Assembly: GCF_910592395.1 (NCBI RefSeq) | Contig: NC_088312.1 | Location: forward strand, 9,176,001-9,240,000 | Origin: Lineus longissimus | Lineage: Eukaryota > Nemertea > Pilidiophora > Heteronemertea > Lineidae | DNA: 64,000 nucleotides | Direction of reading: 5' to 3' | Shown: one piece after another, positions 10,868 to 41,934 of the stretch | Position numbering within the stretch: the first letter of the stretch is position 1 | How the letters are laid out: every line of letters begins with the position of its first letter | Notes under the pieces: model-generated | Told to the model about the DNA's origin: nothing | Database searches by the model: none | Seen by the model: the letters and a program-made list of their open reading frames with translations, nothing else | Made by a program: the position numbers and the translations under genes

Positions 10868-11197
10868 TTATACAAAATTCCCACCGGCACCTTTCATATG
10901 CACAAATTGATGAATACTCAAGTGGTCCTTACGGCGGAATTTCTTCCCACAAGTCCCACAAACAAATGGTTTCTCCCCAGTATGAAGGAAAAGATGCAAC
11001 TTCAAGGAACCCTTCGTCGTAAACGATTTATGACATTTTTTACAACTAAATGGTTTTTCACCAATGTGACTCCTGAAGTGCGCCTCATAGTTTGTCTTGT
11101 TCTGCGATGTCTTGCCACAGATTTGACATCTAAGAGAGCTCCTTGAAGCCGTCATGTCCCACCGGACTGAAACATGGCCAGGGCCAAAAAAGGCAGT
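10868..11197 (-). CDS. Alternative terminal exon X31, three C2H2 fingers
   Basis: The last intact finger exon of the array, furthest from the shared 5' exons. The phase-0 acceptor is attgttcttgcag just right of 11197. The exon encodes 109 residues and a stop. Fingers begin at residues 24, 52 and 80. Helix positions -1/2/3/6 are N-T-N-A, T-G-S-L and R-D-H-I. Finger 1 is of the divergent type with Ser where Phe is usual. Linkers are IGEKPFS and TGEKPFV. The open frame runs on upstream through the intron to 11410, but the acceptor, the array-wide phase and the loss of similarity put the boundary at 11197. Confidence 0.88.
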   Translation of the reverse strand, partial: TAFFGPGHVSVRWDMTASRSSLRCQICGKTSQNKTNYEAHFRSHIGEKPFSCKKCHKSFTTKGSLKLHLFLHTGEKPFVCGTCGKKFRRKDHLSIHQFVHMKGAGGNFV

Positions 11198-12151
11198 CTG
11201 CAAGAACAATAATCGTGCTTCAATTTTAGGTTTGTGTGTCTTTCTACTGTGCTCAGAATCATGGATCTGACCTGGAAGAGGCGGAACATGCAAATACAAC
11301 CTGTGAAAAATGAAGCACGATGAATTTTCTAGCATGAATATGATATCAATGCTCCTGAAAATGAAGTGATTGAATAACACACAAAGTTTCATAACTTCAG
11401 CCGAGCTCATTTAGCTTCTCTGAAAAAAAACTATACATACAGAAAAGGTACAAGATCTATTGATTATCCCCTCCATCTGGAGTAACATCAGCTTGCGTAG
11501 CTTCTCCAGAGAATATGCAGAAAGCACAACCAACCATAGTAAAGAGACTGATGAAGAATTGCTTGAAATATGGCGAAAGGAGCAGGGCTTCCAATAACTT
11601 CCCAAACTTACCCTTCAAAAGGAAGAAAGGGCCCTTGGTAATTGGACATATCTTTCAAAACTACATGAAAGACCCTCCTAACTTTTGTATGACCCTTGAA
11701 AATCCTCTTTTGAGAGGGCCTTGCGGAAAGCCTTTCTGGGCAAGCAAGCAGAGAGCCTCGGGGATTGTGGTAAACTCTTACGACGTTGATCAAGAAAATG
11801 AAGACCAAAATAGCAGCTATGATTCTGAGTGAAAGTACAGTCACAGCAAACCAATAGGAAAGATTTCTAATATTGCTAACCAAGAAACAAGAGGAAGCCA
11901 AGCCATCTGACAAAGAGCTGTGGGAGCCCAGGAAGGAGGTCAAACTCCCAATGAATGGGCTAAATACCACCTCAATCATCCTCAACATCCAGTTACAAGG
12001 ATACAATACGGAAAGAACATCAACAGGAAACTAATACTAGATCTTCATGGAAATCTTATGTAAGAAGAAGGACAACACACAGCCACAGATAGAGTCCTGA
12101 TCGCCCTACTTGCAACAGGAAAATTACCTCTGCAGGAATAGAAAATTTCAC

Positions 12152-12499
12152 TCAAAGTTTCTCCTCGCGCATATGAGTGACCTGGTGACCTGTCACATGA
12201 CACTTTTGAGCAAACCTTTTACCGCATATTTGACACTGATAAGGCTTCTCTCCTGAATGGATCCTCAGGTGTGATGTTAAACTGCCTTTGGTCGCCAGAG
12301 CTTTGCCACAGAGCGGACATTTGAACGGCTTTTCTTTCGTGTGTGTCCTCATGTGCGTCTCATAGTTCATGCGATGCTGCGAGATGGCACCACAGACGCG
12401 GCACTGGAGCGGACGTTCCGTTTGACCTTCAGAAGAGAGACGGCGGATGCCTTGCACTGGTGGCGATAAAGCAGAGCCTGGTTGATGGAGCACGTTGAA
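12152..12499 (-). CDS. Alternative terminal exon X30, three C2H2 fingers
   Basis: Phase-0 acceptor ttgttcttacag right of 12499; 115 residues and a stop. Fingers start at residues 33, 61 and 89, with helix residues (-1/2/3/6) H-M-N-T, T-G-S-S and Q-C-H-G. Finger 2 has Leu for the usual Phe (GKALATKG). The linkers TKEKPFK and SGEKPYQ are slightly off the TGEKP consensus. The 32-residue lead before the fingers is Ser/Gln-rich and unrelated to its neighbours. Confidence 0.9.
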   Translation of the reverse strand, partial: FNVLHQPGSALSPPVQGIRRLSSEGQTERPLQCRVCGAISQHRMNYETHMRTHTKEKPFKCPLCGKALATKGSLTSHLRIHSGEKPYQCQICGKRFAQKCHVTGHQVTHMREEKL

Positions 12500-12888
12500 C
12501 TGTAAGAACAACAAGATGGAGAAAGGATTTAAAACCATGTTGAGATGAACAAATTGGACAAAAGGTCCCGTGGAACTCAAAAGAATGTGACTTCTTACCT
12601 AAGAGAGGGAAAGGTTCTATGAATCAGAAGGCTATTGCTAGCCCATTGATTTCGATACAAGCTAAAAGAATAAAGCTAATCCAATCATTGTGTAGAATTT
12701 TGGTGACAGGGCCTCTTTTCTCCAATTGAAGTATTAGGGTGGGTATTGAGGTTCCCTGAATTATAGCCAGTTGAAGTAGAAGGCTTCATCTGTCACAAAA
12801 GGTATTTAGATGAGAGGCTCCAGACATCCTACATGTACATCCCTCACTGGTTGATTCAAAATATTTGAATGTTTCTGTCTCATGAATA

Positions 12889-13161
12889 TTAATGAGGAGG
12901 CCTCTGATTCTGCAAGGCCATTGGCTGCATGTGGGTAATGTGGTGACGCTTCAAGTTGCCCTTGCTCGTGAATGCCTTCTTACAAATGGAGCACTCAAAT
13001 GGTCTTTCACCGGTATGAATACGCATGTGGACGTCATGATTGAGACGATGTTGAGAAACGACACCGCAAATCTCACAACGGAATCCCCGGTAAGGGCTTT
13101 TGATTGGTCCTTTTCCGTGCCCAATGAAGCTTGTTTGTTGTGCTGGACAAAGGCGGGGAGA
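12889..13161 (-). CDS. Alternative terminal exon X29, two C2H2 fingers
   Basis: Phase-0 acceptor tccttgttcttgcag right of 13161; 90 residues and a stop. Fingers start at residues 29 and 57; helix residues H-L-N-V and S-G-N-R. Finger 1 belongs to the divergent class (GVVSQHRLNH). The short tail after finger 2 contains QNQRPPH. Antisense open frames over this exon are shadows. Confidence 0.9.
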   Translation of the reverse strand, partial: SPRLCPAQQTSFIGHGKGPIKSPYRGFRCEICGVVSQHRLNHDVHMRIHTGERPFECSICKKAFTSKGNLKRHHITHMQPMALQNQRPPH

Positions 13162-13553
13162 CTGCAAGAACAAGGAAAGACAGTGCCATTAAAAAAGTGA
13201 TTTCCTGAAATTGCTGCATGGCAAATCAAAAGCAAGCTGTGAGGAGAATATTGCCTGAAAGGTTTTCAATTTCTTATGGCTGCTTAGACATCATCAACAC
13301 TGAAAAATGACTGTCCATTGCAAAACACGGAACTAGAAAAGGGACACAACTTTGGCAGAGTATAACACCAATAAGAATGTAATCTCAAATGAGCAAAGCT
13401 ATGGATATAAATCCAAGGGAAGGAACCATGCAGTATAGGTGTCTCTCATATACGAGTTTCATGCAATCTTGTTAGTATACACCAAGAGAATGGCAAGAAC
13501 AAGCCACAATATGCACCAAACGCATGGCAAAATTGAACAAGAAGTGCACCAAG

Positions 13554-13898
13554 CTACTTCATAATCTCACTAGGATCCATGTGTTTAAGCTGATCAACCC
13601 TATGGATGAACTCATGCTCAGTCAAGTAACCCTTTGTGCTAAACCTTTTCCCACACACCGCACATTCCAATCGCTTGTCTCCTGAATGTACAACAACATG
13701 TCGTTTGAGGTTTCCTTTACACGTGAAGCCTTTCTGACAAATGGAACATTTGAATGGCCGAACTCCTGTGTGAGTTCTCATGTGAGTTTCGTAATTGATA
13801 CGATTCTGGGATATAACACCACAAATACTACACTTGCGTACGCTGGTTGACCTGGAGAAATCCCTTTCGTGTCTGCCAAATCTCTTCTCATAACACAA
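13554..13898 (-). CDS. Alternative terminal exon X28, three C2H2 fingers
   Basis: Phase-0 acceptor atttgtttttgcag right of 13898; 114 residues and a stop. Fingers start at residues 23, 51 and 79; helix residues N-I-N-T, C-G-N-R and T-G-Y-E. The linkers TGVRPFK and SGDKRLE are divergent, which may loosen DNA contact between fingers. It has a 15-residue tail after finger 3. Confidence 0.9.
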   Translation of the reverse strand: MCYEKRFGRHERDFSRSTSVRKCSICGVISQNRINYETHMRTHTGVRPFKCSICQKGFTCKGNLKRHVVVHSGDKRLECAVCGKRFSTKGYLTEHEFIHRVDQLKHMDPSEIMK

Positions 13899-14397
13899 CT
13901 GCAAAAACAAATGGTAAGAATATGGATCAGTGCATTTGTTTCAAACCCGTGTTGAATTATGGAGATTGCAGGCTTCAATGGATGCAGAGAACCACTTCTG
14001 TACATAGTCAGTCACAACCTGTCATAGAAATGAGATGCAATCTGACGTCGACTGTGGATGAAGCCACAACCAAAACAAAGGCGCAAGACAATGTCACAAC
14101 CACCTATTAACAAACTAGGCAGCACTCACATGTACTGATGAGAAATGTTGAAACACCGAGTCTGGGCCTCAGAATGCTTTGACCAACTTATCCACTTTGA
14201 CACTTACACGTAAACAACGTCCAATTATTTTATGACTCTTCAAAGAACGAGTTGACCTGAATGCCAAACTGATAAAGGAATGATTAATGGAACTTTTCTC
14301 ATGACCTGCTACTTGAATGAAGCTCCATCTTTTCAACTATTCTGAACAGAATCCCCAAATAATGTTAACAGCCATCTTGTTATGACACAAATCAAAG

Positions 14398-14625
14398 CTA
14401 CTGGCTATCCCGCCCGATGTGGGTCACAAAATGCTGCTTCATATTTCCTTTAGTCGAAAAGGTCTTGCTACAGACAGTGCACTTGAAGGGTCGCTCTCCT
14501 GAGTGAGATCTCGCATGCGTCACAAAGTTGGATCTGTTCTGTGCAATGCAACCACAAATCTTGCACTGGAATCGCTGCTTCATCGATTCATATTTTGGAC
14601 GTAACTTGTTCCATTTGTTGATAAA
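14398..14625 (-). CDS. Alternative terminal exon X27, two C2H2 fingers
   Basis: Phase-0 acceptor ttatttttgcag right of 14625; 75 residues and a stop, the shortest intact finger exon on this strand. Fingers start at residues 21 and 49; helix residues N-S-N-T and T-G-N-Q. Finger 1 shows the divergent core (GCIAQNRSNF). The intron upstream (14.63-15.18 kb) contains a 43-bp tandem repeat. Confidence 0.9.
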   Translation of the reverse strand, partial: FINKWNKLRPKYESMKQRFQCKICGCIAQNRSNFVTHARSHSGERPFKCTVCSKTFSTKGNMKQHFVTHIGRDSQ

Positions 14626-14878
14626 CTGCAAAAATAAATAAAGGTTGAAGATTAGATTCGTGGAAATCAATACTAAAGGCAGATCCACATGTAATATTAG
14701 GCCCAATATCATGATCGATGATGAGACAATGTGTTGTGCTCAACTTGAACTGTGAATCAGACTGAAAGGTTGAAGGTCAACATGAGATCACACAACTAAA
14801 ACTCCTAAAAATGGACGCCACCGAGATGATCACGTTCTGACATCAATGGAGAGGTGTTAGAATAACGGAGATCAATTT

Positions 14879-15035
14879 GAATAGAAACAATGAAACAGAG
14901 TGACCAAAAAACACTATCTTCGAATAGAAACAATGAAACAGAGTGACCAAAAACACTATCTTCGAATAGAAACAATGAACTCAGTAACCAAAAACACTAT
15001 CTTTGAAAAGAAACGATGAAACTGTCCAGCCAAAA
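14879..15035. repeat. About 43-bp tandem repeat, 3-4 copies
   Basis: Copies contain aatagaaacaatgaaacaga and ccaaaaacactatctt and decay towards the right. It lies in the intron between finger exons X26 and X27. Confidence 0.85.
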
Positions 15036-15176
15036 TCACTAGTTTTGAGGAAGAGTCCACCCTCCTGATAGAGGCATGTTCAACTGTATAATGATTTCCA
15101 TCATTCGAAACCAAGCAGCCATCTTAATAAACTTTCTCCATGCTGATACGAACAGAACCTTAAGTTCTACAAGTCA

Positions 15177-15428
15177 TCATTTGTCAAAGTGTCCTTCTTT
15201 TGTTAAATGTATGAACATATGAGTTTTCAGATTTCCCTTGTTGATACAAGCCTTGCCACAAACACGACATTTGAATGGCTTTTCTCCTGTATGAATTCGC
15301 TTATGATACTCAAAATTTGCCTTGCACGATGAGATTTTGCCACACATCGGACACTGGAGATTTTTCAGGTTCGGGGTCGTTCTTTGCTGAGGACCTTGGT
15401 AGAACGCTCTCCGGACTGAATGAAGATC
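15177..15428 (-). CDS. Alternative terminal exon X26, two C2H2 fingers
   Basis: First member (from the left) of a dense cluster of closely related exons spaced 250-450 bp apart (15.2-18.9 kb). Phase-0 acceptor tcttgtttcttgcag right of 15428; 83 residues and a stop. Fingers start at residues 26 and 54; helix residues C-A-N-Y and N-G-N-T. Finger 2 has Cys where Phe is usual (GKACINKG). The lead starts DLHSV, matching GLHSM of X25 and DSLHG of X22. Confidence 0.92.
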   Translation of the reverse strand, partial: DLHSVRRAFYQGPQQRTTPNLKNLQCPMCGKISSCKANFEYHKRIHTGEKPFKCRVCGKACINKGNLKTHMFIHLTKEGHFDK

Positions 15429-15480
15429 CTGCAAGAAACAAGAGGATGGCAATTTATAGTCTGATGACGTCTGCCAGTAT

Positions 15481-15744
15481 TCATTCAACCGTCCCATGAA
15501 TTTGCATTATATGAAACTTCAAAGTCTGTTTAGAAGAGAATTTTCTGCCACAAACTGAGCATTTGAATGGTTTCTCTCCAGTATGAACACGTAAATGGAA
15601 TTCATAGTTTGCCTTGCAAGACGAGATTTTACCACAAACGTGACACTGGAAATTTTTTAGTATTTGCTTCGATCTGTGCTGTGGGGAGGATCTTTGCTGA
15701 AGTACTTCGTACTGGTAACTCTTTCCATGCATTGAATGAAGACC
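15481..15744 (-). CDS. Alternative terminal exon X25, two C2H2 fingers
   Basis: Only about 50 bp separate its stop from the acceptor of X26, so the intervening intron is extremely short. Phase-0 acceptor cttgtttattgcag right of 15744; 87 residues and a stop. Fingers start at residues 34 and 62; helix residues C-A-N-F and S-Q-T-F. Finger 2 ends with four residues between its histidines. It is the closest sister of X24. Confidence 0.92.
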   Translation of the reverse strand, partial: GLHSMHGKSYQYEVLQQRSSPQHRSKQILKNFQCHVCGKISSCKANYEFHLRVHTGEKPFKCSVCGRKFSSKQTLKFHIMQIHGTVE

Positions 15745-15785
15745 CTGCAATAAACAAGAATATGCCATTTGAAGTATCGCGATAG

Positions 15786-16064
15786 CTATCGGTATTCAGT
15801 CAAACGTTCCACCCGACAACACTCACGAATTTTCTTGATATGAAACTTCAATGCTTGTTTAGAAGAGAACTTTCTGCCACAAACTGAACATTGGAATGGT
15901 TTTTCTCCAGTATGACTACGCAAATGGAATTCGTAGTTTGATTTGCAGGTTGAGATTTTTCCACAGTGATGACATTGGAGATTTTTTCTTGATTGGGTTG
16001 ATCCCTGCAGAGATGTTGATTTCCGCCCAGGTACTTGGCAGGTCCTCCCATATGAGTCAATACT
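15786..16064 (-). CDS. Alternative terminal exon X24, one standard plus one altered finger
   Basis: Phase-0 acceptor tcttgtttcttgcag right of 16064; 92 residues and a stop. Finger 1 starts at residue 31 (helix C-S-N-F). Finger 2 starts at residue 59 (S-Q-A-F), but its last His is gone: the end reads [10 protein letters not shown], leaving cysteines as possible fourth ligand. Sister of X25, where the same position is intact. Confidence 0.88.
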
Positions 16065-16148
16065 CTGCAAGAAACAAGAGTACCGCCATTTATGGTACGA
16101 CAACATCGACTGGTATCCAGTCGGGGAAACCCTGTCTTAATATATCCA

Positions 16149-16400
16149 TCATCTTTTCACCAATGACCAGCATTGGTTTTGCATTCTTTTGCAATGTGTT
16201 ATCATCACATGAGACTTCAAAGTTGCTTTACAGGAGAAATTCTTGCCGCATGCGACACATTTGAATGGTTTTTCCCCACTATGTGTGCGCAGATGAAATT
16301 CATGATTTGATCTGTTCTTCGAGATTTTGCCACAAATGTGACACTGCAGAATTTTTTTCGTTGGGGTTGATCTTCGGAAGGACATGCCACACAAGAAATC
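16149..16400 (-). CDS. Alternative terminal exon X23, two C2H2 fingers
   Basis: Phase-0 acceptor tcttgttttttgcag right of 16400; 83 residues and a stop. Fingers start at residues 20 and 48; helix residues N-S-N-F and C-A-T-S. Finger 2 has four residues between its histidines. The linker is SGEKPFK. The lead begins DFLCGMSF, related to X22. Confidence 0.92.
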   Translation of the reverse strand, partial: DFLCGMSFRRSTPTKKILQCHICGKISKNRSNHEFHLRTHSGEKPFKCVACGKNFSCKATLKSHVMITHCKRMQNQCWSLVKR

Positions 16401-16470
16401 CTGCAAAAAACAAGAGTAGGACCATTTAAGCAAAGACACGAAGATCCTTAATTCCAAGACCAAAATACCC

Positions 16471-16728
16471 TCAGAACAATCCCTTTTTCAAAATCGTCCC
16501 AATTCTTTGATTGGTGAAACTACAATATGTTATTTGATGCCTTCGCAAATTTCCTTTCGTAGAAAAACCCATGTTACAAGTCAGACATTTAAATGGTTTT
16601 GCTCCTGTATGAGTGCACATGTGGGCATCATAATTTCCCTTGCATGATGAAATTTTCCAACAAATCGGACACTGGAGATTATTAATTGTTTGGGTGGTTC
16701 TCATGAAGGTCCTTCCATGTAATGAATC
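16471..16728 (-). CDS. Alternative terminal exon X22, C2H2 plus C2HC-like finger
   Basis: Phase-0 acceptor tcttgttttttgcag right of 16728; 85 residues and a stop. Finger 1 starts at residue 20 (helix C-G-N-A), finger 2 at residue 48 (T-G-N-R). Finger 2 ends RRHQITYC, so the second His is Tyr and the next residue is Cys, giving a C2HC pattern. The linker TGAKPFK lacks the usual Glu. The tail is longer than in its sisters and may be a read-through after loss of an earlier stop. Confidence 0.88.
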   Translation of the reverse strand, partial: DSLHGRTFMRTTQTINNLQCPICWKISSCKGNYDAHMCTHTGAKPFKCLTCNMGFSTKGNLRRHQITYCSFTNQRIGTILKKGLF

Positions 16729-16841
16729 CTGCAAAAAACAAGAACAGAACCATTTAAGCAAACGTGAACAGCTCCTTAAATTCTACCACTTAAATGACCT
16801 AAGATCTATCATCTTATCAAAAACACCTCCATTTTAACTGG

Positions 16842-17075
16842 TCAAACTGTCTCCCTAAAATGTGTAATCCGATGTGTTTGCAAATTCCCTTTCTTCGAAA
16901 AACTCTTGAAACAAGTTGGACATTGGAATGGTTTTTCTCCTGTGTGAGTGCGCATATGGCATTCATAATTTGCCTTGCACGATGAAATTTTCTCACAAAC
17001 GTGGCATTGGAGATTTTTTCTTCCTGGAGCTGCTTTCGGCTGATGTAATTGGTAGGTCATTCCATACATCAAATC
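16842..17075 (-). CDS. Alternative terminal exon X21, two C2H2 fingers
   Basis: Phase-0 acceptor tcttgttttttacag right of 17075; 77 residues and a stop. Fingers start at residues 24 and 52; helix residues C-A-N-C and K-G-N-T. The linker is the perfect TGEKPFQ. Finger 1 has CEKISS in place of CGKxF. Same subfamily as X18-X26. Confidence 0.92.
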   Translation of the reverse strand, partial: DLMYGMTYQLHQPKAAPGRKNLQCHVCEKISSCKANYECHMRTHTGEKPFQCPTCFKSFSKKGNLQTHRITHFRETV

Positions 17076-17101
17076 CTGTAAAAAACAAGAGTATTGCTAT
17101 T

Positions 17102-17365
17102 TTAAAGGATTTTAAATAATTGGTAGTCAAGCAACTGTCCCTGCCTGTAATAATGTGTTATTTGATGATTTCTCAAATTGCCTTTGTGAGAGAAAATCTT
17201 GTTACAAGTTTGACATTTGAATGGCCTTTCTCCTGTATGAATACGCAAATGGCACTCATAGTTAGCTTTGTGTTGCGAAACTTTGCCACAGATCGGACAC
17301 TGGAGATCGTCCTTTATCACAGTCCTCTGCCACTGCTGTTCTCGTATATAATTTGAATGAAAGCT
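17102..17365 (-). CDS. Alternative terminal exon X20, two C2H2 fingers
   Basis: Only about 26 bp lie between this stop and the acceptor of X21, so the exons almost abut. Phase-0 acceptor aattcttttgcag right of 17365; 87 residues and a stop. Fingers start at residues 23 and 51; helix residues H-A-N-C and H-G-N-N. It shares the lead words EQQ-QRTVIK-DLQCPIC with X19 and the broken exon at 17.8-18.1 kb, marking a recent triplication. Confidence 0.92.
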   Translation of the reverse strand, partial: SFHSNYIREQQWQRTVIKDDLQCPICGKVSQHKANYECHLRIHTGERPFKCQTCNKIFSHKGNLRNHQITHYYRQGQLLDYQLFKIL

Positions 17366-17469
17366 CTGCAAAAGAATTAAAGTCTGTCATAGATAATGTG
17401 GTCAATGAAAATGTATAAATGCGGCTACAAAAAACCACATTGCATTTTTTAAACAAGTTCATCAAAACT

Positions 17470-17712
17470 TCAGCGGCTAAAATGTCCTTCCTGTCTAAAA
17501 TGTGTCACCATGTGAGACTTCAAATTTCCCTTGTTTTTAAAACCCTTGCCACATTTTTTACACTTGATAGGTCTTTCTCCTGTATGAGTACGCATGTGGT
17601 ATTCAAAGTTGGCTTTGTGTTTCGATACTTTGCCACAGATCGGACACTGAAGATCGTTCTTTATCACAGTCCCCTGCCGCTGCTGTTCTTGTCTATAATC
17701 CGAACGAAAAAT
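17470..17712 (-). CDS. Alternative terminal exon X19, two C2H2 fingers
   Basis: Phase-0 acceptor gtctcttttgcag right of 17712; 80 residues and a stop. Fingers start at residues 23 and 51; helix residues H-A-N-Y and N-G-N-S. The linker is TGERPIK. Its tail RQEGHFSR recurs in the tails of X26 and of the broken exon at 18.3 kb. Confidence 0.92.
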   Translation of the reverse strand: MFRSDYRQEQQRQGTVIKNDLQCPICGKVSKHKANFEYHMRTHTGERPIKCKKCGKGFKNKGNLKSHMVTHFRQEGHFSR

Positions 17713-17770
17713 CTGCAAAAGAGACAAAAGAATTGTCATTTATACTACCAGCAACTATGTGAGCATCAAA

Positions 17771-18098
17771 TTAAAGATCTCCTTCAAAAACAAAGTGTTC
17801 ATTGTTGAACTTGTTCTGTGAGATGTTCCCACAGTTGTGACATTTGAAATTACTGCAAAATATAGCTGAAAAGTAATTTGAAATATCATTAGTTGAAGTG
17901 TCTCCTCGTCTATGCCTGATCATGCGAGATTTAAAAAAATTCCTCTTGTTAGCACTGCTCTGACCACAAATCCAACAATTGAAAGGCACTTCCCCTGTGT
18001 GAATACGCATATGGAATTCATGATTTGCTCTGTGCTTCGACACTTAGCTACAAATCTGACACTGGAGATCATGCTTCCCTTCAGTCCTTTGCTGTTGC
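17771..18098 (-). pseudogene. Disrupted finger exon with in-frame stop
   Basis: A sister of X19 and X20: the same QQRT lead and CQIC start. A taa stop sits where the second half of CGK would be, just before VSKHRANHEFH. The frame is also shifted relative to the phase-0 acceptor near 18098. The second finger has diverged (CWICGQSSANKRN) and the tail is unrelated. It cannot give a finger protein from the shared exons. Confidence 0.85.
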
Positions 18099-18198
18099 CT
18101 GCTAAATCAATATTCAGATAGGTAGCTCAGAAAAATAGAGTTTGTCATTTATGATGAGCAGAATCTCAAAAAAACTTTCTAACTTTCATGATCTTCAA

Positions 18199-18271
18199 AC
18201 CGAGTCCTTCAAAAAGGTATTGGTTAAAGTGTCCTTCTTCTCTTAAATGCATGACCATATGAGATTTCAAA
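18199..18271 (-). pseudogene. Fragment of a finger exon 3' end
   Basis: A roughly 71-bp tandem copy of the end of the neighbouring exon, reading KSHMVMHLREEGHFN on the minus strand. No acceptor and no complete finger remain. Confidence 0.8.
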
Positions 18272-18288
18272 CCAAGTCCTTGATAGCA

Positions 18289-18526
18289 TTATCGATTAAA
18301 GTGGCCTACTCTTAAGTGCATTGCCATATGAGATTTCAAATATCCCTTGTTCGCACACCTCTTGCCACTTTTTGGACACTTGAAAGGTCTTTCCCTAGTA
18401 TGAATACGCAAAGGGCATTCATAGTTGGACTTGAGAGATTTTTCCACAGATGTGACACGTGAAATTCCTCCTTGTAACAGTGAAACTCCCTCGAGAGGAA
18501 GTACGCCCATTCACTGAACAAGGAAT
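18289..18526 (-). pseudogene. Disrupted finger exon, frameshift in finger 1
   Basis: Acceptor ctgttttgcag right of 18526 opens in phase 0 and reads to FTCHICGKISQ, then meets a stop. The rest of the finger (SNYECPLRIHTRERP) continues in another frame down to 18289. The remaining finger also has Ser for its second Cys (CPKSGK) and Pro where the first His should be (YECPLRIH). This is clear decay of an exon from the X18-X26 subfamily. Confidence 0.87.
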
Positions 18527-18606
18527 CTGCAAAACAGGACAAAGATACCGTCATTCATGCCGTGAACAATTTATCTCCTTGGTCTTGATTAAATCTTTTG
18601 TAATCC

Positions 18607-18873
18607 TTATAAAAGTTTGGTATCATCTTGGTTCAATTCGCCCTTCCTGTAATGTGTAAACAAATGCCTCTTCATCGAACTCTTGCAAGGGAAACTATCG
18701 CCACATTTCTGACATTTAAATGGTCTCTCTCCTGTATGAATACGCATGTGATATTCGTAATTTGCCTTGCATGAAGAGACTTTGCCACAGATCCGACATT
18801 GGAAGTTCATCCTGGTCGAAGTCCAGCGTTTCTGTGATGAAGTCTGACTACTGGTAGTCATTGAAGGAGGAAT
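18607..18873 (-). CDS. Alternative terminal exon X18, two C2H2 fingers
   Basis: Right-hand end of the dense cluster. Phase-0 acceptor tctttttttgcag right of 18873; 88 residues and a stop. Fingers start at residues 26 and 54; helix residues C-A-N-Y and C-S-S-R. The tail is YRKGELNQDDTKLL. The broken exon at 19.2-19.5 kb is its sister and shares FPCKSS-KRH and KGELN. Confidence 0.92.
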   Translation of the reverse strand: MPPSMTTSSQTSSQKRWTSTRMNFQCRICGKVSSCKANYEYHMRIHTGERPFKCQKCGDSFPCKSSMKRHLFTHYRKGELNQDDTKLL

Positions 18874-32062: not shown

Positions 32063-32359
32063 CTGTAAAATAAAGAAAGGTGGGAGTTTTAGGACAACCG
32101 ATCAAGCGTAAGCAAGGAAGCAAGGGATTTGTTTAAAAACAAACTTGATGTTTTTAAACTCATTGAGAGCGGGGAAACCTCTATGAGGGAATGATGGGAA
32201 GAAATTCAGAAATTTTAAACGTTTGCCAGAAAGGATCCAGTATTTGTTGTGTCTTGACATGCTCGAGGAGGGTCTACAGCTGAAGGTAAATCTGCAGACT
32301 CATACCATCCTCTTTCCCTAATTAACGAAACTATTAACGAAAGCTACACTTAAATGCTA

Positions 32360-32365
32360 TTTATT
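32360..32365 (-). terminator. Poly(A) hexamer after X5
   Basis: AATAAA on the minus strand about 320 nt past the X5 stop. Confidence 0.4.
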
Positions 32366-32687
32366 GACAGATCTTATAGAACATATGAACCAGAACATAA
32401 TTCACTTCCGTACATAATTCACTTCAGTACAAGTAGACTTTGTCTATCTCTACTGGAGAGGAGAATGCAATGTTTTAAGTGACTCCTGGTATTCTCTAGA
32501 AACATATCAATAATCGCTGAGATTGTGTCTCAATATCCATGAAGATCGGTTTCACAGAATCACAAGTATCCAATGTCAGTGTGATCATCTCATCAGGGCT
32601 TGTTATGCGTCAACAAATGACAATCAAACCTTAAATGAGACTTCCATATTAGTTTTAATGAATCACACGTATCCAATGTCAGTGTGA

Positions 32688-33005
32688 TCATCTTGTCAGG
32701 AGCTTGTTGTGTGTCAACATATGACAATCAAGCGTGCCGCTCTGGGCAAACTGTTTCCCACAAATAAGACATCGATATGGCTTCTCTCCCGTGTGTGTCC
32801 TGATGTGCCTAGTCAGACAGGACTGCTGGACGAACGCCCGTGGACAGAACGGACATTTGTAAGGACGTTCACCTGTATGACGTCTCATATGACGGGAGAG
32901 ATTTCCGGCCGTTTGCATGCCGCAGATGCGACATTTATTAGGGTTACCTCCCGGGGAAATTACTTGTACTTGCGCTTTGGGTTTCTTGGGGTATTTGAAA
33001 CTGAG
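32688..33005 (-). CDS. Alternative terminal exon X5, three fingers, first one short
   Basis: Phase-0 acceptor ttttgttcttccag right of 33005; 105 residues and a stop. Finger 1 (residue 25) is only 19 residues long, with 10 instead of 12 residues between the second Cys and first His ([12 protein letters not shown]). Fingers 2 and 3 start at residues 51 and 79; helix residues Q-S-C-R and Q-G-T-C. The lead is basic (KYPKKPKAQ). Confidence 0.92.
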
Positions 33006-33356
33006 CTGGAAGAACAAAAGAATTATTGGTTTAAACTTCAATTTTTCTTTATATTGGATAAGACAAAGACACCAAGTCTAACTAAGATCTGTCATCTCAC
33101 TTCATATCAGATGGCTGCAAATGAAAATGTTTCATCAATGCAAATTCTTTTCCTGTTCGGATGTTTCAAGACTCTGACCAGTGATCATCCTAATGTACAA
33201 GTCCATGGCAAAACTGAGTAGTGATTTGTGCAACAAACACACATTTTAGGGCTCTAAATCCGGATTTCCTAACCTTTTGCAGGTACAATTTTGGTCAAGT
33301 CCCGTCTGCAGTAGCACACAAAAGCAACGTTGTCTACTCTTTTTTCGAACTGCTGA

Positions 33357-33617
33357 TCAGAGGAAGTGCAGATTCTTCCTGAAATATGCCTCATGTTTAC
33401 TCATCATATGTCTCTTCATGCCACATTTCTCAATGAATCCCTTCTGACAAACAGGGCAGTGGTGGGGGCGTTCTCCTGTGTGTCGCTTGGCATGGCGCGC
33501 AAGACTGCCACTTGTCGCGTAGCACACGCCACAGTAGGGACATCTATAGGGACTTCCAGGAGACTGAATGCTGGAACGTTCTTCCCTACCCAGTGACAGG
33601 CTGCCAACACGATAGGG
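33357..33617 (-). CDS. Alternative terminal exon X4, two C2H2 fingers
   Basis: Phase-0 acceptor tgtttctttacttacag right of 33617; 86 residues and a stop. Fingers start at residues 26 and 54; helix residues T-G-S-R and E-C-G-R. Finger 1 has Tyr for Phe. Finger 2 ends RHMMSKH (four residues between the His). The long open frame upstream to 33905 is intron: similarity begins only at the acceptor. Confidence 0.92.
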   Translation of the reverse strand, partial: PYRVGSLSLGREERSSIQSPGSPYRCPYCGVCYATSGSLARHAKRHTGERPHHCPVCQKGFIEKCGMKRHMMSKHEAYFRKNLHFL

Positions 33618-33924
33618 CTGTAAGTAAAGAAACAACAACCATTTTACTTCAAACAAGTCTATTTCTGAGCCAAAAAAGACAACACACAAACTATAGATAC
33701 ATGTATTAACAAAAAGGTCTGTTACATCAGACAAAGGATATTCTTTTATGATTTCGGAGGGGTTTGGTTTACACTTGGTGCATCTACACAAAAAAATCAA
33801 TACAAAAATCAAGACTGAGAGAATGTGAAATGAATAAAATCCTACGCCGAAACAAAATATTGGACCGCCTTGCTTGGTACACCGAATGTCTGCCAAATAC
33901 AACACAAAGCATGTGTTTTGCTTT

Positions 33925-34254
33925 TCAATTTACTTTCTTTAGATGTGTCGTTAAGTGAATCTTTACTGAGTAGCTCTGATGAAAAGCTTTGTTACAAACA
34001 GGACATTTAAATTTCCGTTCTCCAGTATGGATGCGCATGTGCCTTGACAAGGCTCCTTTGAAAGAAAATGTTTTCTGGCAAATTTCACAACGATGAGCAT
34101 TTCTATTAGAAGTTCTTGTCCTTTCCACATTTTCCAGCGGATATGGCTGTGTCCTCTTTGGCCTAGATCTGATGGGTTTTAAATTTTTAAGTAGGACTTG
34201 GTCGCTGAACTGCCTGGAGCCAACATATTCGATTGTCTTGCCTGGTACATAGCG
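33925..34254 (-). CDS. Alternative terminal exon X3, two C2H2 fingers with basic lead
   Basis: Phase-0 acceptor ccttcttgtatttgcag right of 34254; 109 residues and a stop. A 55-residue lead rich in Arg/Lys (IRSRPKRTQ, NVERTRTSNRN) precedes fingers at residues 56 and 84; helix residues F-G-A-R and Q-Y-S-I. The basic lead may act as an exon-specific nuclear localisation or DNA-binding patch. Confidence 0.92.
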   Translation of the reverse strand, partial: RYVPGKTIEYVGSRQFSDQVLLKNLKPIRSRPKRTQPYPLENVERTRTSNRNAHRCEICQKTFSFKGALSRHMRIHTGERKFKCPVCNKAFHQSYSVKIHLTTHLKKVN

Positions 34255-34894
34255 CTGCAAATACAAGAAGGTTGGAATTTCAGATTGCCATTTGAGATTC
34301 ATGAACTTCTATACTCATCTAATGCTATATTTAAAACATACTCTGAATAGAAAAATGGGTTAATCATTCCTCCTGACAATGTATTGACCCAAACTGGCAA
34401 TTCCTCATGAATAATCCTGTCAGCCCAACCAAAGGATATCAACTCAATATCATATTACCTTGACAGCATACTAAAAATCTGACATCATTAATATCATGGC
34501 CCATTATAGGGTACACACCAGATGGTATCCATGGCAACGCATGGTTATAGCTCACCAGTGCAGCTGTAGCTCTCAGTATATTGGATCTGATGTCTGATAT
34601 ACCACTACAGCTAGGTTTACACGATATCTAGCATATCAGAATATCGCTAGGTTATGGGATTTTTCACTTCGCTGCACAGACTGCGGAACAATGCTCTGGG
34701 TTCAGGTTGGGTGTGGATTCTGATATAAGTACAATGGCCATGGGATGAACTTATATTCATCCAGGTCTCTCAATTACATCATTTGGAAACACCAGGCATA
34801 TTTTCCAGCGATTTCATTGCGTTCACACCTGACATCAATCTTTTGCGCCTAAAATCTGTCTCGCATAATCATGAGAGTTTACTGATGTCCAATG

Positions 34895-35149
34895 TCATTT
34901 TAAAGGCCTCGAGGTCTGCATGGTGCATGTACTGTGTTTGAGTTTGATATGAGTCCTAAGATTTCCCTCCTGCGAGAAGCTTCTCTGGCAAAACTGACAT
35001 AAGAATGGTTTCTCTCCGGTATGTTTCCTGTTGTGCACTGTCAGACTGGCCTTGCTCGGAAACGGTTTACCACACCACCAACACGACCATATTTTCACCC
35101 TGCTTTTCAGATGTGTCAGCTCGGGTACTGCGGCAGGGATGAGAAGGAC
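34895..35149 (-). CDS. Alternative terminal exon X2, two C2H2 fingers
   Basis: Phase-0 acceptor cctgttttacag right of 35149; 84 residues and a stop. Fingers start at residues 23 and 51; helix residues S-A-S-V and Q-G-N-T. Finger 1 starts CWWCGKPF. Finger 2 has four residues between its histidines (HIKLKH). The intron just upstream contains short repeats of agacatgaaag. Confidence 0.92.
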
Positions 35150-35261
35150 CTGTAAAACAGGAGAGGAAGGAGCATAATTGATGGCCTCCTGAACCAAGGT
35201 GCCAACTTGCCATTCTTTGGGATCAGAAGATTGAAGGATCTTTGTCTTCTAGACATGCATT

Positions 35262-35350
35262 GCAAGATAGATCCCTTTTCTTCTAGACATGAGAGATGGG
35301 ACCATCTTCTGGACATGAAAGTTCTAGACATGAAAAGTCCAGACATGAAA
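35262..35350. repeat. Short imperfect repeats of agacatgaaagatggg
   Basis: Words tctagacatgaaag, gacatgagagatggg and gacatgaaagatggg recur within 90 bp inside the X1-X2 intron. Confidence 0.65.
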
Positions 35351-35405
35351 GATGGGTCCATCATCTTTGCCATTGTCATGAACAGGAAATGTTAGAATAG
35401 AACAA

Positions 35406-35411
35406 TTTATT
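35406..35411 (-). terminator. Poly(A) hexamer after X1
   Basis: AATAAA on the minus strand about 290 nt past the X1 stop. Confidence 0.4.
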
Positions 35412-35697
35412 TCCGAGTATACATTACGTGGTGGTAACATTGTCAACATTATGACAGCATTCAGATCTTGTATCAGCCAGGTTAACCTTGGTCAAACAAA
35501 CAGGCATTTACCACAATTTGGAAAAGTTTCGAAACAAAAACACATCAGATGTAACATCTTCTTCTACAGCACTGAAACATAGTCGCACAGAGAACCTGAA
35601 TTTCATGATAAAAACTGATTATTACACAAGTCGGTGAACCTGGTCTGGAGACAGATGACGGAATCCATATTGACGTCAAACAAACACTAACTCACAG

Positions 35698-36024
35698 CTA
35701 CTTTAAACTGAACTCGGCCAGATACTGTGGGTGCATGATCATGTGATTCTTCATGTCAGACATATAAGTGAATGTTTTCTTGCAGTATTTGCAAACATGG
35801 CTTTTCGAAACCGAATGGATCCTTGCGACATGTTTTGTCAAGCTGTTCTTCCGAGTGAATGATAATGTGCACTTGTTACAGCTAAATAGTTTCTCTTCAG
35901 TATGGATACGAGTATGAATATCAAGAGATGTCTGTTCGAAGAAGCATTTCTTGCACCAAGGGCAGAGGACACCTTGACCAGTTTCGCCTCCGACAACGTC
36001 AAGTCCTGATCGGTGAAACACAAA
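35698..36024 (-). CDS. Alternative terminal exon X1, three C2H2 fingers
   Basis: The finger exon nearest the shared exons. Phase-0 acceptor ctgatttcag right of 36024; 108 residues and a stop. Fingers start at residues 21, 49 and 78; helix residues E-T-S-I, R-N-S-K and Y-S-D-N. Finger 2 has four residues between its histidines. Linkers (TEEKLFS, SVSKSHV) are the least TGEKP-like in the array. All three fingers keep the standard Phe core. Confidence 0.92.
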   Translation of the reverse strand, partial: FVFHRSGLDVVGGETGQGVLCPWCKKCFFEQTSLDIHTRIHTEEKLFSCNKCTLSFTRKNSLTKHVARIHSVSKSHVCKYCKKTFTYMSDMKNHMIMHPQYLAEFSLK

Positions 36025-39000
36025 CTGAAATCAGATCAGAGGAAAACTCAATACCTCACCCACAGTCAGAAAAACTGACGAAGCCTGAATGAATTGTAAA
36101 ACCCGAGATACCACACGAAACTTCTTTCCTTTATCTTGAAGGGCCTTCCGGATTCAATGGCAAAAGATACTGGCACAGAGGATACATTTTTAGTCCACCG
36201 CTACTCTGCTTTAAAGAAATACATGCTCACATATTGTTCATTATCAACTGAGAGTTGATTTTACAATGTAGAACTATCAAATGACTAAGATGACAAACTT
36301 GACATTCTAAACAGAGACCTGAAAATCTGAAAATTCATTATGGAGAAAAAGGAGAAGTCAAGACCTTGAAAAGATCATTTTTATTGCTGATATAATGAGA
36401 TGAACATGACCTGAAAAACAAAGAAAAATACTGATGAAAGTACTAGCACTCTATATATAGTAAAACATATCTTCCACATCCAGACTCTCCTGTCCAATTA
36501 TGATGAACCCTTGAGTATCATGAGTTTGCCTGGTCCACATCCTCCGATAGTCCAAGTCTATCACCAAGTAGATCTTTGTTCCTGACCTAATATATTCTCA
36601 GATTCGGGAAAAAGATGGCCTGAGTCCTGAGCCTTTCAATGTAGGTCAAGCTCTTCATTTGAAAAATGACATGGTTTTCTGCTGATATTCATCATTTCTA
36701 TCAATACATCTATTGTAAGTCGTCGAATGGTTGCTGGTTTACGATCAGTTTGAAACATTTTTCTCCCAACACAGAATGTCACGTAAGATGGGTACAACTT
36801 TTAGGCAGATTTTTTTCTCTGTCAACCGGCAGAGATCTTCAAACATGTTAAAATGATTTCAGGAATAGAAATTCGAAAAGGTTTTGGACCAGTTAGAGAG
36901 TTCCCTTTGTTCCCACAATGCTAGAGTAACTTCATGCTGACATGCAGCAAATATGCCCTGAGTAGATGACTCCTGAGACTGGTTGTTTCAATATATTTTC
37001 AGTTCAACTGCGAGCACAGCAAACCATCAGGATGTAATGAATTTCTATTCCTGATACGAGTTGTTATGAAAGAATTCAACGAGAACGCAAAAACAAATGT
37101 CAGTTTTTAAAAAAGTTGTGAGTACTTCAGTTTCCTTACCTGTGAAAATTCTAGATATAGAAATGATTTTCTCCTGAAACTGAAGGTAATTCTCATTCCA
37201 AGTGCAATTGTTTTTGAACACAACAGATCGATCACACAATCAATCAATTAAAACGCCAGCCAAACTCCATACCAATTCCATTCATCGAAGAATCTTTGAC
37301 AACTCCATACCAATTCCATTCATCGAAGAATCTTTGACATGTGTTGTCAGTTGGGTTGGCATTTTAAATGATTGATTTGGTTTGTGATATTTATTTAGAA
37401 GTTACAGACTTACTGAATGTTGATATTTTTGCACCTGTGCACCAACAGGGCAGGGCGTGCAAAGCTAGTGTTCGCAAGATTTAACCAGTTAAATCCTTTT
37501 ATGTAGGCAGCTTGCAGCCAGTACACTCCAAACTTTCAATATGTTCAAGGCAATGGTATTGCCCAGCCATGTCTTTAGCTCCATATTTTAGACTGTCTTG
37601 AAAAAGATTGCATTTGGAATGATGGGATTTGGTAAGACCTGAAGAAAAAATGTTCCTAATCGAGGAATGCCAACAGGAGTACATCTTATCGATACTTTGC
37701 CTGTATTGTATTGTAACCCATTAACACACATGTGCTGAACAGGCTGGGCTTGGAGGCAGTACCCCAATCAACACAGGTCACGTTTTTCTTGGACGGAGCA
37801 GGTTATGCTTCAGGGTAAACTAGCAAACAAGACAAAGGGGAAAAACGACAAGTCCAGAACGAATGAAGAAACCGCAAGCTTGAAAAGAACATTTTTGCCC
37901 TACGTTAAAGGACACCCTGAATCAGATATTCTCCTCATCACTGCCGAAATGAAGGCAACACCTGAATACAGGAATTGGAGTGGGTGTATTTTTTTGTTCC
38001 TCAGACAAGTCAGAATGGGTCATCGAAAAGTAAGTAAAAAGTGTCAATGTTCGTCTCTGGAACAACGTCCTTTTCAAACCAGCACCATTCTTTAACATCC
38101 AACACTTTGTTAGGCCTAACAACTGAAGTACTCCAACCAAAGTTACTGTCAAGCAGACTCAACTTGTGTGACATTTCAGAATGAACAGACTTCGTTCATG
38201 AGATCATCACTTAGTCCACACCACGGTCCTTGATGCACTAGTAATGAAAGGTACAACGTCATTGACAGCCATAGAGGAAATAGGTAAGGTGAGACTCTAA
38301 AAAGTTTTGTTCATAATATCTGCTCACCCAAGCCAACTGAATGAAAACTTCAGCTCGATAAAATAATGTCAAATATGAAAATTACATATTGTAGTATGTT
38401 GTACACACAATATTCAAATCTGCTTGCCAGGCTCAAACGAACTATAAACTAAAGTAAAGTATAATGATCTAGCAACACTTCCAATGAAATACTTCTGTTT
38501 TAAACACCTAACATTTCATTCTGCACATAGTCAATTGCATGTGCAAAAACCCCCAAGGACGTGACAGGGTTTATCATCGATCAATCGAATTTCAAACTGA
38601 AAATGAAATAACTTTTCATTCAAATCCAATGGCTCATCAGGTTTGAACTGCATGTAGTCAACAGCCTCAAACTGGTCATTACTTGCTAGATCAGATACAC
38701 TTTGCAATGAAAACAGACTTCATATCAAGCTGACTTGTGTTGACACAAAAACACAGATCAATCGACTTGGTCGTCTGAAGCAGGCAAAGTTGAACAGCCC
38801 AACAATTGCCTGACTTTCAGACCAATTTCGTCACTCAGCTATTTGCAGCTTTTCCATGCACTCATTTCCAGTGTAGAGCTGTGCTGTTTTCACCAATTTT
38901 GAAGAAATTCATCATTTCAGTCACTCAAGTCAACTATCAATGAAGTCAACAAAACTAATGATAAAAGGGTATGAGCTGGTATGTACTGATATTCATCACA

Positions 39001-40365
39001 ACACTATAGGCAAAGTGCTGACACAGGAGAGGAAAATCAGAATTGTATCCTTTCAAAGACAGATTGTCATGAGCTATGTCGTCCGAGGAGAGGATCCTGC
39101 ATGGACTTGGGCAATTGGACCCAGAAGACTTTCTTAAACGCACTGTGTTAAGCTTAGTTTTCACTAACATTTACAGCGAAACGGCCCAGCACAGCTTTCA
39201 CAGGTGTTTGATTCATGTTGATTTGAGTTACTGGCTCAGCAATGGAAACTGACCATTACACCTGTTATTGTAAAAGTGGCAAAATGATGACTGTAGACTG
39301 CGATACAATCCAACATTTACTCATCAGAATCTATTCTAATGATCATCTCCTTTATCAACACTTGCCTAACCAGCTGCAAAGAATGAGAAGACTCAAAAGT
39401 CACACATTACAAACATACTTCATTTCAAAGTAGACATTATTCAAAATAGAAATCATTTCAAAATGGACATTATGAAGCATTTGAAAAGTTTCATAAATTG
39501 AAGCTCTTTCTAAATGATCAACGTGCCCCTTTCTTCAGTTTTTTCATTACTATATGTGTAGATAGTGATAAGTTCCCTCTCATACATCATAAGTAATAAA
39601 TATTATTCCTTGAACTAGTCACCCAAAGGCAATACCTCACACGAATTCAATTGATTAATTTCAAATACAGTTATCAGTACATTGGTAATGTGTGAACAAA
39701 TGTAATCAACAAAACAGGTATCCATGAAATCTTGCAATTACATGTATCTTGTCAACTCTCTTTTTTTCCTTCCACACCTTTGTATTTGCATACACTAATT
39801 ATCATAACAGTGCCTCTTGCAAAACAGCTTATTTCAATCTGCCCCAATAACTTAAAAGCTGAGGGCAGACGCAGCTTCCAACAAACAAAAAACAATCCAG
39901 CATTGGAATTTTCTTTTGAAGATGAAGCGAATTGCACAACCTCTGATGATTTCTTGAATACCTGTTGACAAACCATATCATACCCTGTGCATCAGCAACC
40001 TTGTATCAGACCACAACTAGCTAGGGATGCCTTCAGCTTGGTCGACCGTTGGCTGAAATTGCTAGAGAAAACGTTATCGAGCATTCGATATTTTCATATG
40101 AAAAGAATACTGCACACAAGTATTTTGTGTTTGGTTCTGTACCAAGTAAATATTATTCAAGCCAGATTTTTTCACAGAGGGAAATGCTGCCAAAAAATGG
40201 ATGAGGCTATAAGAATCACTAGTATTCGGTAAAGGATTTAAACAGGCATTTAAATATGACTTTGTGGTGTATTTTTTTAATGTTTTGCATCCTGACAAAT
40301 TGCAGTGCGATACAAGGTAGCAGATACCTAACTAAATTAGAGAATAATTCACAACTTATCCCTAC
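36025..40365 (-). other. 4.3-kb intron between shared exon 2 and the first finger exon
   Basis: No finger exon, relic or other gene is recognised in either strand. The open frames (for example 37805-38095) have no familiar motif. A 38-bp tandem duplication lies at 37265-37340. If the array is spliced as proposed, this is where exon choice begins. Confidence 0.55.
37265..37340. repeat. 38-bp tandem duplication
   Basis: Two adjacent perfect copies of a unit starting aactccataccaattccatt. Confidence 0.92.
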
Positions 40366-40968
40366 CTTTCCATCTCCTCCAGGTGACATTCCCGTACTCG
40401 GGATAGGCCCCGATATCGGCACAGGGGGGCCCTGATTACTGTCACTTGCCCCTGAACTAGGCGTGCCTGGCATCATACCTGAGTCACGCTGCGAGTCCAT
40501 CATCATAGCACCAGCAGAAGTGTCAATTCCGCTTTTATTGTCCTCATCGTCTTGTGAGACACTTAATGGGAAGAATGTATCACTTGCGCTGCTCACTGGA
40601 TTAAAATTGTCATGAGAGAGAGATTGCATGGGCGACGTTATAGAGGGCGACACCGAAGACCATTGTTCTTTTGTTGGCGTAGCTGACATGGAAGTATTAC
40701 CCTGTGACAACATGCGGTGAGAGAGATCGGAGAAAGTATCGGTGGTCATGGCAGAGATGCGAGATATAGCATTGTCCTGGTTTGGATGTGACAGCCTGAA
40801 TTGTGACGAACCCACATCCTGTTCCATTGGTTGTGCTGATTTTGATTGAGACTCGGCCATGGAAATGATGTTGGAAAGACCAAAGTCTGCTTGTTCCACG
40901 GAGAGATCTAAAGTTGGAGGGGAGTCTGGAATCTCTATCACAGGTTGGGCAGCCACATTGGACGATTT
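40366..40968 (-). CDS. Shared exon 2: Ser/Pro-rich linker with SUMO-interacting-like motif
   Basis: Acceptor ttcttcttgcag right of 40968, donor aaag/gtaggg left of 40366. It is 603 nt, phase 0 at both ends, 201 residues. It starts KSSNVAAQP then VIEIPDSPP, which matches the hydrophobic core plus acidic/phospho-Ser pattern of SUMO-interacting motifs. The rest is Ser/Thr/Gln/Met-rich and looks disordered, ending in a Gly/Pro-rich stretch (GPPVPISGPIP, GGDGK). It would connect the coiled coil to any one finger exon. The plus-strand paralogue (43952-44551) is clearly homologous along its length. Reading on past the donor gives only a short tail and a stop. Confidence 0.92.
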
Positions 40969-41226
40969 CTGCAAGAAGAATATGGATAAAAGGATTTATA
41001 AAAATTCTATTTTCTTAGCAATGAACAAATTGAACACAAGGTTTTTTCCTTTTTCTTGAATCATAACAACATACAAAATTTCGTTTCCTTCAAAGACGGA
41101 GACATTTTGAATATCTAATTTCAAATCACACCTTGTCAAACCTACATAGGAGTCTAATATCCTCTGTCCTAAACATTCAAAGATACAGGTAGGTCTCAGG
41201 TCTGAATATAACTTCCTAATACTTAC

Positions 41227-41934
41227 TGATTTACTTTGCCTAAGACTTCTCTTAGTGAACTCATGAGCTCGTCTTTCCATCTCCAGTGTCCTCTCTTTTA
41301 ACTCTAACTGTTCTTTCAATTCCGCATTCTCCTTCATCAACTGATTTTGTAACTTTTTCAATAGATGGTCTTTTATTGAAATCTGCTCTTGTTTTATTGT
41401 TAATTCTGATTTCAATCGTTCTAAATCAGCACGATAACGCACAACCTCTGTCTGCTTTCCTAAAAGTTCACTCCTCGACTTGTCTAACATGTCCATATTA
41501 CAGTTCAAATCAGATCGCACACTTTGTAACATTTGTTCTTTTACAGTCAGCTCTGATTGTGTTCTATTCAGCAGTCTTTGATTGGCTTTAATCTCCTCCT
41601 GTAACTTGGTGATCTCCTCATTCCCAGCATCCACCACTGGTTTCATTTCGTCCAACTGACGTTTCCGCATATTGATTTCTTTTCCTGCGATTTCAACAGA
41701 ATTTTCCTTCACCACAAGTTCTGCTTGGTACCTGGTGATAAAACTAAACAAGTCCGACCAAGCTTTGGTCAACACAGCTCCTTTGCTTTGTAATTCTGTC
41801 TGCATATTTTGAAATGGATGTTCCGTTTGCATCTCTTGGAATGGTTGCTCAGCTTGCATGGCCTGCCCTGGGCTAGGGCTGCCCTCGTCGTCAGTGTGTT
41901 GGTTGTCTTGCAGCGACATGGCTCCGTCCTTCAT
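41227..41934 (-). CDS. Shared exon 1: coiled-coil N-terminus of the multi-finger gene
   Basis: The coding part is 708 nt from ATG 41934 (MKDGAMSL), or 693 nt from ATG 41919 (MSLQDN). The donor tca/gtaagt left of 41227 is phase 0. After about 55 acidic, Gln-rich residues, about 175 residues form a long coiled coil with heptads (for example ELTVKEQMLQSVRSDL and ERLKSELTIKQEQIS). This should give dimers or oligomers. No BTB, ZAD or KRAB domain is present. The paralogue starts at the position of the second Met (its counterpart of MKDGA begins with ATT), so either start is possible. A 5' UTR acceptor tgtatttacag lies right of 41962. Confidence 0.92.

Follow-up and report, generated by a model that had tools for sequence, protein, structure and literature searches.

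A 64,000-nucleotide stretch of the genome of the nemertean Lineus longissimus (NCBI RefSeq assembly GCF_910592395.1, contig NC_088312.1, positions 9,176,001 to 9,240,000; hereafter the window, in whose numbering all positions are given) appears to carry a two-armed locus in which a constant coiled-coil module is joined to alternative 3′ zinc-finger exons, a reading to which, judging from the sequence, we give a probability of roughly two in three. The gene structure in the window is of the eukaryotic type, and the two arms are directed away from each other, the left one on the minus strand with 31 intact C2H2 exons and the right one on the plus strand with three (Table 1).

In the proposed arrangement, each arm would provide two constant exons, encoding the coiled coil and a linker, whose phase-0 donor is spliced to one downstream C2H2 exon, so that the 31 left and three right endings would yield proteins with a common pairing part and differing DNA-binding ends. 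In the proximal left array, the eight of 17 exons that have a poly(A) hexamer of their own could be used as alternative last exons of the ordinary kind. Among the distal exons, the choice of a finger would amount to the choice of an acceptor within effectively one long last exon: translation would end past the chosen finger, and the rest of the transcript, with any later fingers, would become 3′ untranslated region as far as about 10556. Meanwhile, gene conversion across the inverted pair would keep the coiled-coil tracts of the arms alike, and products of both arms could therefore pair. The steps that we infer are thus splicing, acceptor choice, the shared 3′ end, conversion as the cause of likeness, pairing and DNA binding. 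The fullest version of the proposal, a two-armed generator of non-BTB factors with a giant last exon, a shared poly(A) site, sparing from nonsense-mediated decay, coiled coils kept by conversion and 34 freely pairing endings, is tentative and, taken as a whole, rather doubtful.

The constant exons and the coiled coil

The lengths of both left constant exons are divisible by three, and each is followed by a phase-0 donor, that of exon 2 reading AAG/GTAGGG. The first-pass annotation of this DNA had described two shared 5′ exons with a phase-0 donor, followed on the same strand by 31 finger exons, and the coordinates, phases and frames agree with that description. It had placed the start codon at 41934, where an in-frame ATG does exist, but the paralogous copy retains only the ATG equivalent to 41919. 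Its “one coiled-coil gene” was right about the constant coiled-coil 5′ part and has to be amended, the locus being one arm of a head-to-head pair; overlooked were the right arm (43127-46388, plus strand), a 32nd finger open reading frame (ORF) at 19190-19513 and a stop-broken relic at about 17771-18061.

In the first constant exon, hydrophobic amplitude peaks at a period of 3.5 residues (23.0 in the left copy and 22.1 in the right, against at most 13.8 at five other tested periods). AlphaFold2 renders left exon 1 as a single helix over residues 35-230, with a mean predicted local distance difference test score (pLDDT) of 86.8 and a predicted template modelling score (pTM) of 0.37, for one chain and a two-row alignment. 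A 3.5-residue heptad repeat in a long helix, as expected of a coiled coil, is found in both the sequence and the model, and such a helix would be fit for pairing. Pfam scans of the open frames of the constant exons of both arms gave no match above a family cut-off, right exon 1 having a sub-cut-off match to RACo_linker (E 0.0006); BTB in particular has no Pfam match at E up to 0.001 in these frames. The earlier idea of a coiled-coil module in place of BTB is supported by the repeat, the single long helix and the unmatched BTB profile.

A search of the window with the constant exons (tblastn) gave two coiled-coil copies only, those of the left and right arms. Coiled-coil pattern stretches numbered 42 in viral contigs and 267 in genome contigs, none of them confirmed as relatives, which says little as these collections are viral and prokaryotic. 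Rfam at gathering thresholds gave 0 matches in the window. An ATTAAA lies at 40281 on the minus strand, 85 nt past the donor at 40366 and within the 4.3-kb intron; polyadenylation there could give a finger-less protein consisting of the coiled-coil part only.

The finger exons and their acceptors

Each of the 31 left finger exons, from 36024 to 10868, is open in frame from a YAG acceptor to its stop, which lies 3-72 residues beyond the last strict-pattern finger (C-x2-C-x12-H-x3/4-H, conserved F and L); a stop inside every finger exon had been claimed before and holds for all 31. The strict pattern has 86 matches in the window, four of which contain a stop. The 82 stop-free fingers are divided between the minus strand at 10.9-36 kb (76, two of them in the ORF at 19190-19513) and the plus strand at 45.3-46.4 kb (six). 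Among 73 tallied fingers, the conserved F is in place in 46 and the L in 43, and Pfam PF00096 matched in both finger exons that were scanned (n = 2). Two exons have unusual layouts: 25461-26159 holds two similar finger blocks in a single open frame, which could reflect a tandem copy that lost its own acceptor, while for E29069 (28719-29222, minus strand) a further in-phase acceptor lies 99 nt upstream, at 29168 in the same frame, giving two possible exon starts.

The acceptors in Table 1 were picked for being in phase, and the table alone is therefore no test of phase. In a separate test, the best-scoring acceptor in the 260 nt ahead of the first finger was in phase for 32 of all 35 intact finger ORFs on the two strands, the exceptions being the ORF at 19190-19513, E11197 and E26159; since duplicated exons inherit their phase, these ORFs are not independent trials. 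The median best-acceptor score of the finger ORFs was 18.2, a value attained at 1% of about 3000 random plus-strand points (median 14.4), and random minus-strand points of the array, true acceptors included, had a median of 15.8.

The finger exons also seem to need a 5′ part from elsewhere: no in-frame ATG occurs between acceptor and first pattern finger in 19 of the 31 left exons and one of the three right ones. A strict scan of both strands for other 5′ exons (donor AGGTRAG) found none, with a pattern that misses the locus's own donors. A looser one, for ATG-open stretches of at least 90 nt ending at a GTRRGD donor, does recover the four constant-exon ends; it gave 25 stretches on the minus strand at 10868-40365, 20 of them overlapping finger exons, and 20 on the plus strand as a control. 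Only one of the five non-overlapping stretches, 11988-11782, is in phase 0, and its position allows it to serve the last exon only. The first-pass statement that upstream promoter-like exons are missing thus fares well, there being little sign of other 5′ exons among the finger exons beyond this candidate.

Docking sites, sought between the intron and the 200 nt before the left acceptors, were rejected. Matches exceeded single-base shuffles (255 vs 152.7 at k=9, 76 vs 41.3 at k=10, 22 vs 11.6 at k=11), but the reverse-complement control was higher still (466, 279 and 221, respectively), which points to tract composition; the fullest intron bin was above the shuffles' fullest at k=11 only (three exons vs two).

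Diversity of the fingers

The set of predicted DNA-contact residues (positions -1, 2, 3 and 6) differs in all 34 exons. Variability over 73 fingers is highest at positions 6 and -1 and lowest at the F position, with the L position third from the bottom; two non-contact positions, 3 and 5 residues past the second Cys, vary more than contact positions 2 and 3. In a distal clade of nine exons, the share of comparisons that show a difference is 48% in finger 1 and 80% in finger 2 at contact positions, 34% and 55% at other positions, and 28% and 22% at the F/L positions.

The ratio of nonsynonymous to synonymous divergence (dN/dS) was computed for the 30 closest pairs among the 561 that the exons form; dS was estimable in 19 of these, which gave ratios of 0.13-0.44, and not in the other 11. 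The three pairs with dS below 0.8 had ratios of 0.36-0.44, under the neutral value of 1. The variation fits a diversified DNA specificity on a kept scaffold.

A poly(A)-signal desert and a probable common 3′ end

On the minus strand, the 8.7 kb from 19244 to 10556 contain neither AATAAA nor ATTAAA, with 14 intact finger exons inside, and the stop-to-acceptor gaps of eight distal exons are 26-113 bp. Between 10868 and 18873, 7.0 minus-strand hexamers were expected and 0 seen (0 of 400 dinucleotide shuffles were as low), while the plus strand had 10 (9.6 expected) and the minus strand of the proximal array 15 (14.4 expected). Given the signal-free stretch and the tight spacing, the 14 distal exons probably share one 3′ end, near 10556. 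The label “alternative terminal exons” given to the whole array must be narrowed, as the distal exons have no individual canonical poly(A) signals and only some of the array suits it: a hexamer precedes the next intact exon in eight of the 17 proximal exons (E36024, E33005, E32062, E30990, E27586, E24937, E21904 and E20864).

A transcript with nothing spliced downstream of its stop escapes nonsense-mediated decay, so transcripts in which nothing downstream of the chosen distal acceptor is spliced would be spared. If this sequence stays unspliced, donors should be depleted in it. Together with the intron, 22 GTRAGW donors were seen and 32.7 expected (2.5% of shuffles as low); strong donors numbered 0 on the minus strand (2.6 expected; 14.5% of shuffles as low) and 0 on the plus strand (2.0 expected). 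Donor scarcity thus lends weak support.

The mirror-image arm

A paralogous plus-strand locus lies head-to-head with the left arm, 1.2 kb away, with constant exons at 43127-44551 and three finger exons. The exon-1 copies have an equal residue at 195 of 231 aligned codons (dN/dS about 0.27) and the exon-2 copies at 127 of 179 (about 0.25). Synonymous divergence is strongly uneven along them: in exon 1, dS per 30-codon block is 0-0.21 in codons 31-180, 1.0 in codons 1-30 and 0.88 in codons 181-210, the last block being undefined, and in exon 2 it is about 0.2 in codons 121-179, with earlier blocks at 0.8 to 2.3 or undefined. The identity tracts of the two arms have sharp edges. Such blocks of low dS seem better explained by conversion of inverted copies than by selection at the protein level, and gene conversion appears to have homogenised the coiled-coil stretches of the arms. 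That the pair is an assembly artefact is unlikely, given the strong synonymous divergence outside the tracts and the different finger sets.

In a tree of the finger exons, the three right exons group with left E28634, E29069 and E29994 (92/93), and right E46185 pairs with left E29994 (94/87); of 200 bootstrap trees, 0% recovered the right exons as monophyletic. At least two finger types would accordingly be older than the split of the arms. The bar of 95/80 is reached by four of 31 inner branches and by none of the right-exon forks, the bootstrap had not settled, and the four well-supported branches are compatible with a single origin of the right exons.

Weighing the alternatives

Several observations tell against the proposed arrangement. 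The signal desert was chosen post hoc, and a gap of that length also turned up in one of 60 shuffles of the whole minus strand; over the whole array, 15 hexamers were seen and 21.5 expected, with 7% of shuffles as low. These counts cover the canonical AATAAA and ATTAAA, non-canonical signals falling outside them, and nine of the 17 proximal exons likewise have no hexamer ahead of the next exon. The depletion of GTRAGW donors within the array proper is weak (21 vs 26.8 expected; 15% of shuffles as low). The looser scan would miss first exons within the array that are short or non-coding, and E11197 and E26159 have a stronger out-of-phase acceptor nearby. Additionally, dS between finger exons is mostly near saturation, and the low synonymous divergence between the arms may also reflect constraint instead of conversion. 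Finally, 12 of the 31 left exons and two of the three right ones do have an in-frame ATG ahead of the first pattern finger, so that the claim of no internal start context is true for 19 left exons and fails for the other 12.

The alternative that survives best, while still unlikely, is trans-splicing in the manner of mod(mdg4), in which constant and finger exons would be separate transcripts, with promoters in the array and joining perhaps even across arms. The mRNAs of mod(mdg4) are described as made exclusively by trans-splicing (PMC12692577), and for lola both cis and trans splicing are used (PMC1947980). At this locus, AATAAA at 37395 and 36385 and ATTAAA at 40281, all within the 4.3-kb intron, could end a donor transcript, and the donors of both arms are in phase 0, compatible with all 34 listed acceptors. 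Against trans-splicing, the eight distal exons 26-113 bp apart leave little room for single promoters, and the finger exons of each arm stand on the strand of their own constant exons, as cis-splicing would keep them.

It is very improbable that few exons are used and that most of the array is the decaying remnant of old duplications. Of the 33 left finger sequences found, one is out of phase and another is broken by a stop, and at least two distal exons (E16728 and E16064) have an irregular second finger, but the remaining 31 left sequences have kept their frame, acceptor and stop, and the three least diverged exon pairs have dN/dS below 1. The least probable alternative is that the fingers are independent ORFs, either single-exon genes or operon members to whose acceptors a spliced leader is joined: the close spacing and the acceptor directly ahead of each ORF are reminiscent of spliced-leader operons, and the 12 left exons with an early ATG would suit it, but the missing start codons rule out such an operon for most exons, and independent ORFs would offer no reason for phase-0 acceptors to persist.

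Features of the window

Table 1. Features of the two arms, in window coordinates
Feature	Position	Strand	Remarks
Left constant exon 1, coiled coil	41919-41227	-	693 nt, 231 codons; donor TCA/GTAAGT, phase 0
Left constant exon 2, linker	40968-40366	-	603 nt, 201 codons; acceptor TTGCAG/AAA
Intron, left exon 2 to first finger exon	36025..40365	-	4.3 kb; placed from donor and acceptor positions
Proximal left array	20343..36024	-	17 intact finger exons
Proximal exons 1-5	35698-36024, 34895-35149, 33925-34254, 33357-33617, 32688-33005	-	
Proximal exons 6-10	31742-32062, 30661-30990, 29656-29994, 28719-29069, 28305-28634	-	
Proximal exons 11-14	27251-27586, 26520-26825, 25461-26159, 24635-24937	-	25461-26159 is a fused double
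Proximal exons 15-17	22375-22674, 21599-21904, 20343-20864	-	
Finger ORF	19190-19513	-	nearby acceptors out of phase; probable relic exon
Distal left array	10868..18873	-	14 intact finger exons; no AATAAA/ATTAAA among them
Distal exons 1-5	18607-18873, 17470-17712, 17102-17365, 16842-17075, 16471-16728	-	
Finger relic	~17771-18061	-	broken by stop
Distal exons 6-10	16149-16400, 15786-16064, 15481-15744, 15177-15428, 14398-14625	-	
Distal exons 11-14	13554-13898, 12889-13161, 12152-12499, 10868-11197	-	
First AATAAA beyond last finger exon	10551..10556	-	312 nt past stop of E11197; proposed shared 3′ end
Spacer between divergent start codons	41920..43126	.	1.2 kb; candidate bidirectional promoter, from ATG positions
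Right constant exon 1, coiled coil	43127-43834	+	236 codons; phase-0 donor
Right constant exon 2	43952-44551	+	200 codons; donor AAG/GTGGGT, phase 0
Right array (45254..46388)	45254-45481, 45514-45723, 46185-46388	+	3 finger exons, phase-0 acceptors
Inverted repeat in exon 1	41303-41857 with 43198-43752	- / +	555 nt, 94%; proposed gene-conversion tract
Inverted repeat in exon 2	40384-40548 with 44354-44518	- / +	165 nt, 91%; second proposed conversion tract

Elsewhere in the window, a 449-codon open frame at 49430-50779 (minus strand) contains a dual-specificity phosphatase domain (Pfam DSPc, E 1e-18), with 2wgp (DUSP14) as the only solved chain at E up to 1e-10. The frame at 59925-60194 (minus strand) has a weak, sub-cut-off Pfam match to a reprolysin-like metallopeptidase and an in-frame HELGH motif, and is probably one exon of a protease gene. 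Past the 3′ end of the left array, a minisatellite of 27 copies of a 70-bp unit occupies 7394-9284, and tandem repeats in a complex nested arrangement (units of about 86, 109 and 412 bp) lie at 2869-4949.

Comparison with known systems

Known loci share parts of this design. In fruitless and tramtrack, 3′ zinc-finger exons are swapped behind a constant exon, with few ends and a BTB domain. Clustered protocadherins likewise combine tandem variable exons with one constant module, but their variable exons are 5′, have their own promoters and encode adhesion ectodomains.

The closest parallels are lola and mod(mdg4), whose hallmark, alternative 3′ exons each with a zinc-binding domain and a stop, is found here by sequence in 31 left and three right exons. 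The lola locus has at least 20 isoforms and combines constant N-terminal pairing exons with alternative C-terminal exons, most with zinc fingers (PMC1947980). The present locus differs in its coiled coil without a Pfam BTB match, its 31 + 3 ends, its second head-to-head arm and its clustered exons without canonical poly(A) signals of their own. For mod(mdg4), more than 30 isoforms are reported (PMC12692577); another source counts at least 31 for the fly and at least 40 for the butterfly D. plexippus (PMC4667647). The fly figure is similar to the number of alternative 3′ ends behind constant exons found here, and the first-pass description of this locus as a larger version of the known ones is therefore not supported. 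The common exons of mod(mdg4) are trans-spliced to 3′ exons that have their own promoters and lie partly on the opposite strand (PMC12692577), and its ends are mostly of the FLYWCH type (PMC12692577, PMC4667647), whereas the present locus has classical C2H2 fingers encoded on the same strand as its constant exons, with a coiled coil in place of BTB. The unmatched BTB profile puts the locus outside the BTB group of lola and mod(mdg4); the Tramtrack-type BTB group is described as Arthropoda-specific and hexamer-forming (PMC11426971). In the literature searched, mostly openly accessible, no coiled-coil locus of this kind was among the matches listed.

If the proposed arrangement is correct, a single locus could give rise to dozens of related gene regulators, and a design familiar above all from the BTB loci of flies, in which one pairing module serves many interchangeable DNA-binding ends, would have been reached with an unrelated pairing module. 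The crowded distal cluster makes a testable prediction, namely acceptor choice without separate poly(A) sites. The mirror-image arm would offer a natural experiment, in which the constant parts are kept alike while the finger sets diverge.

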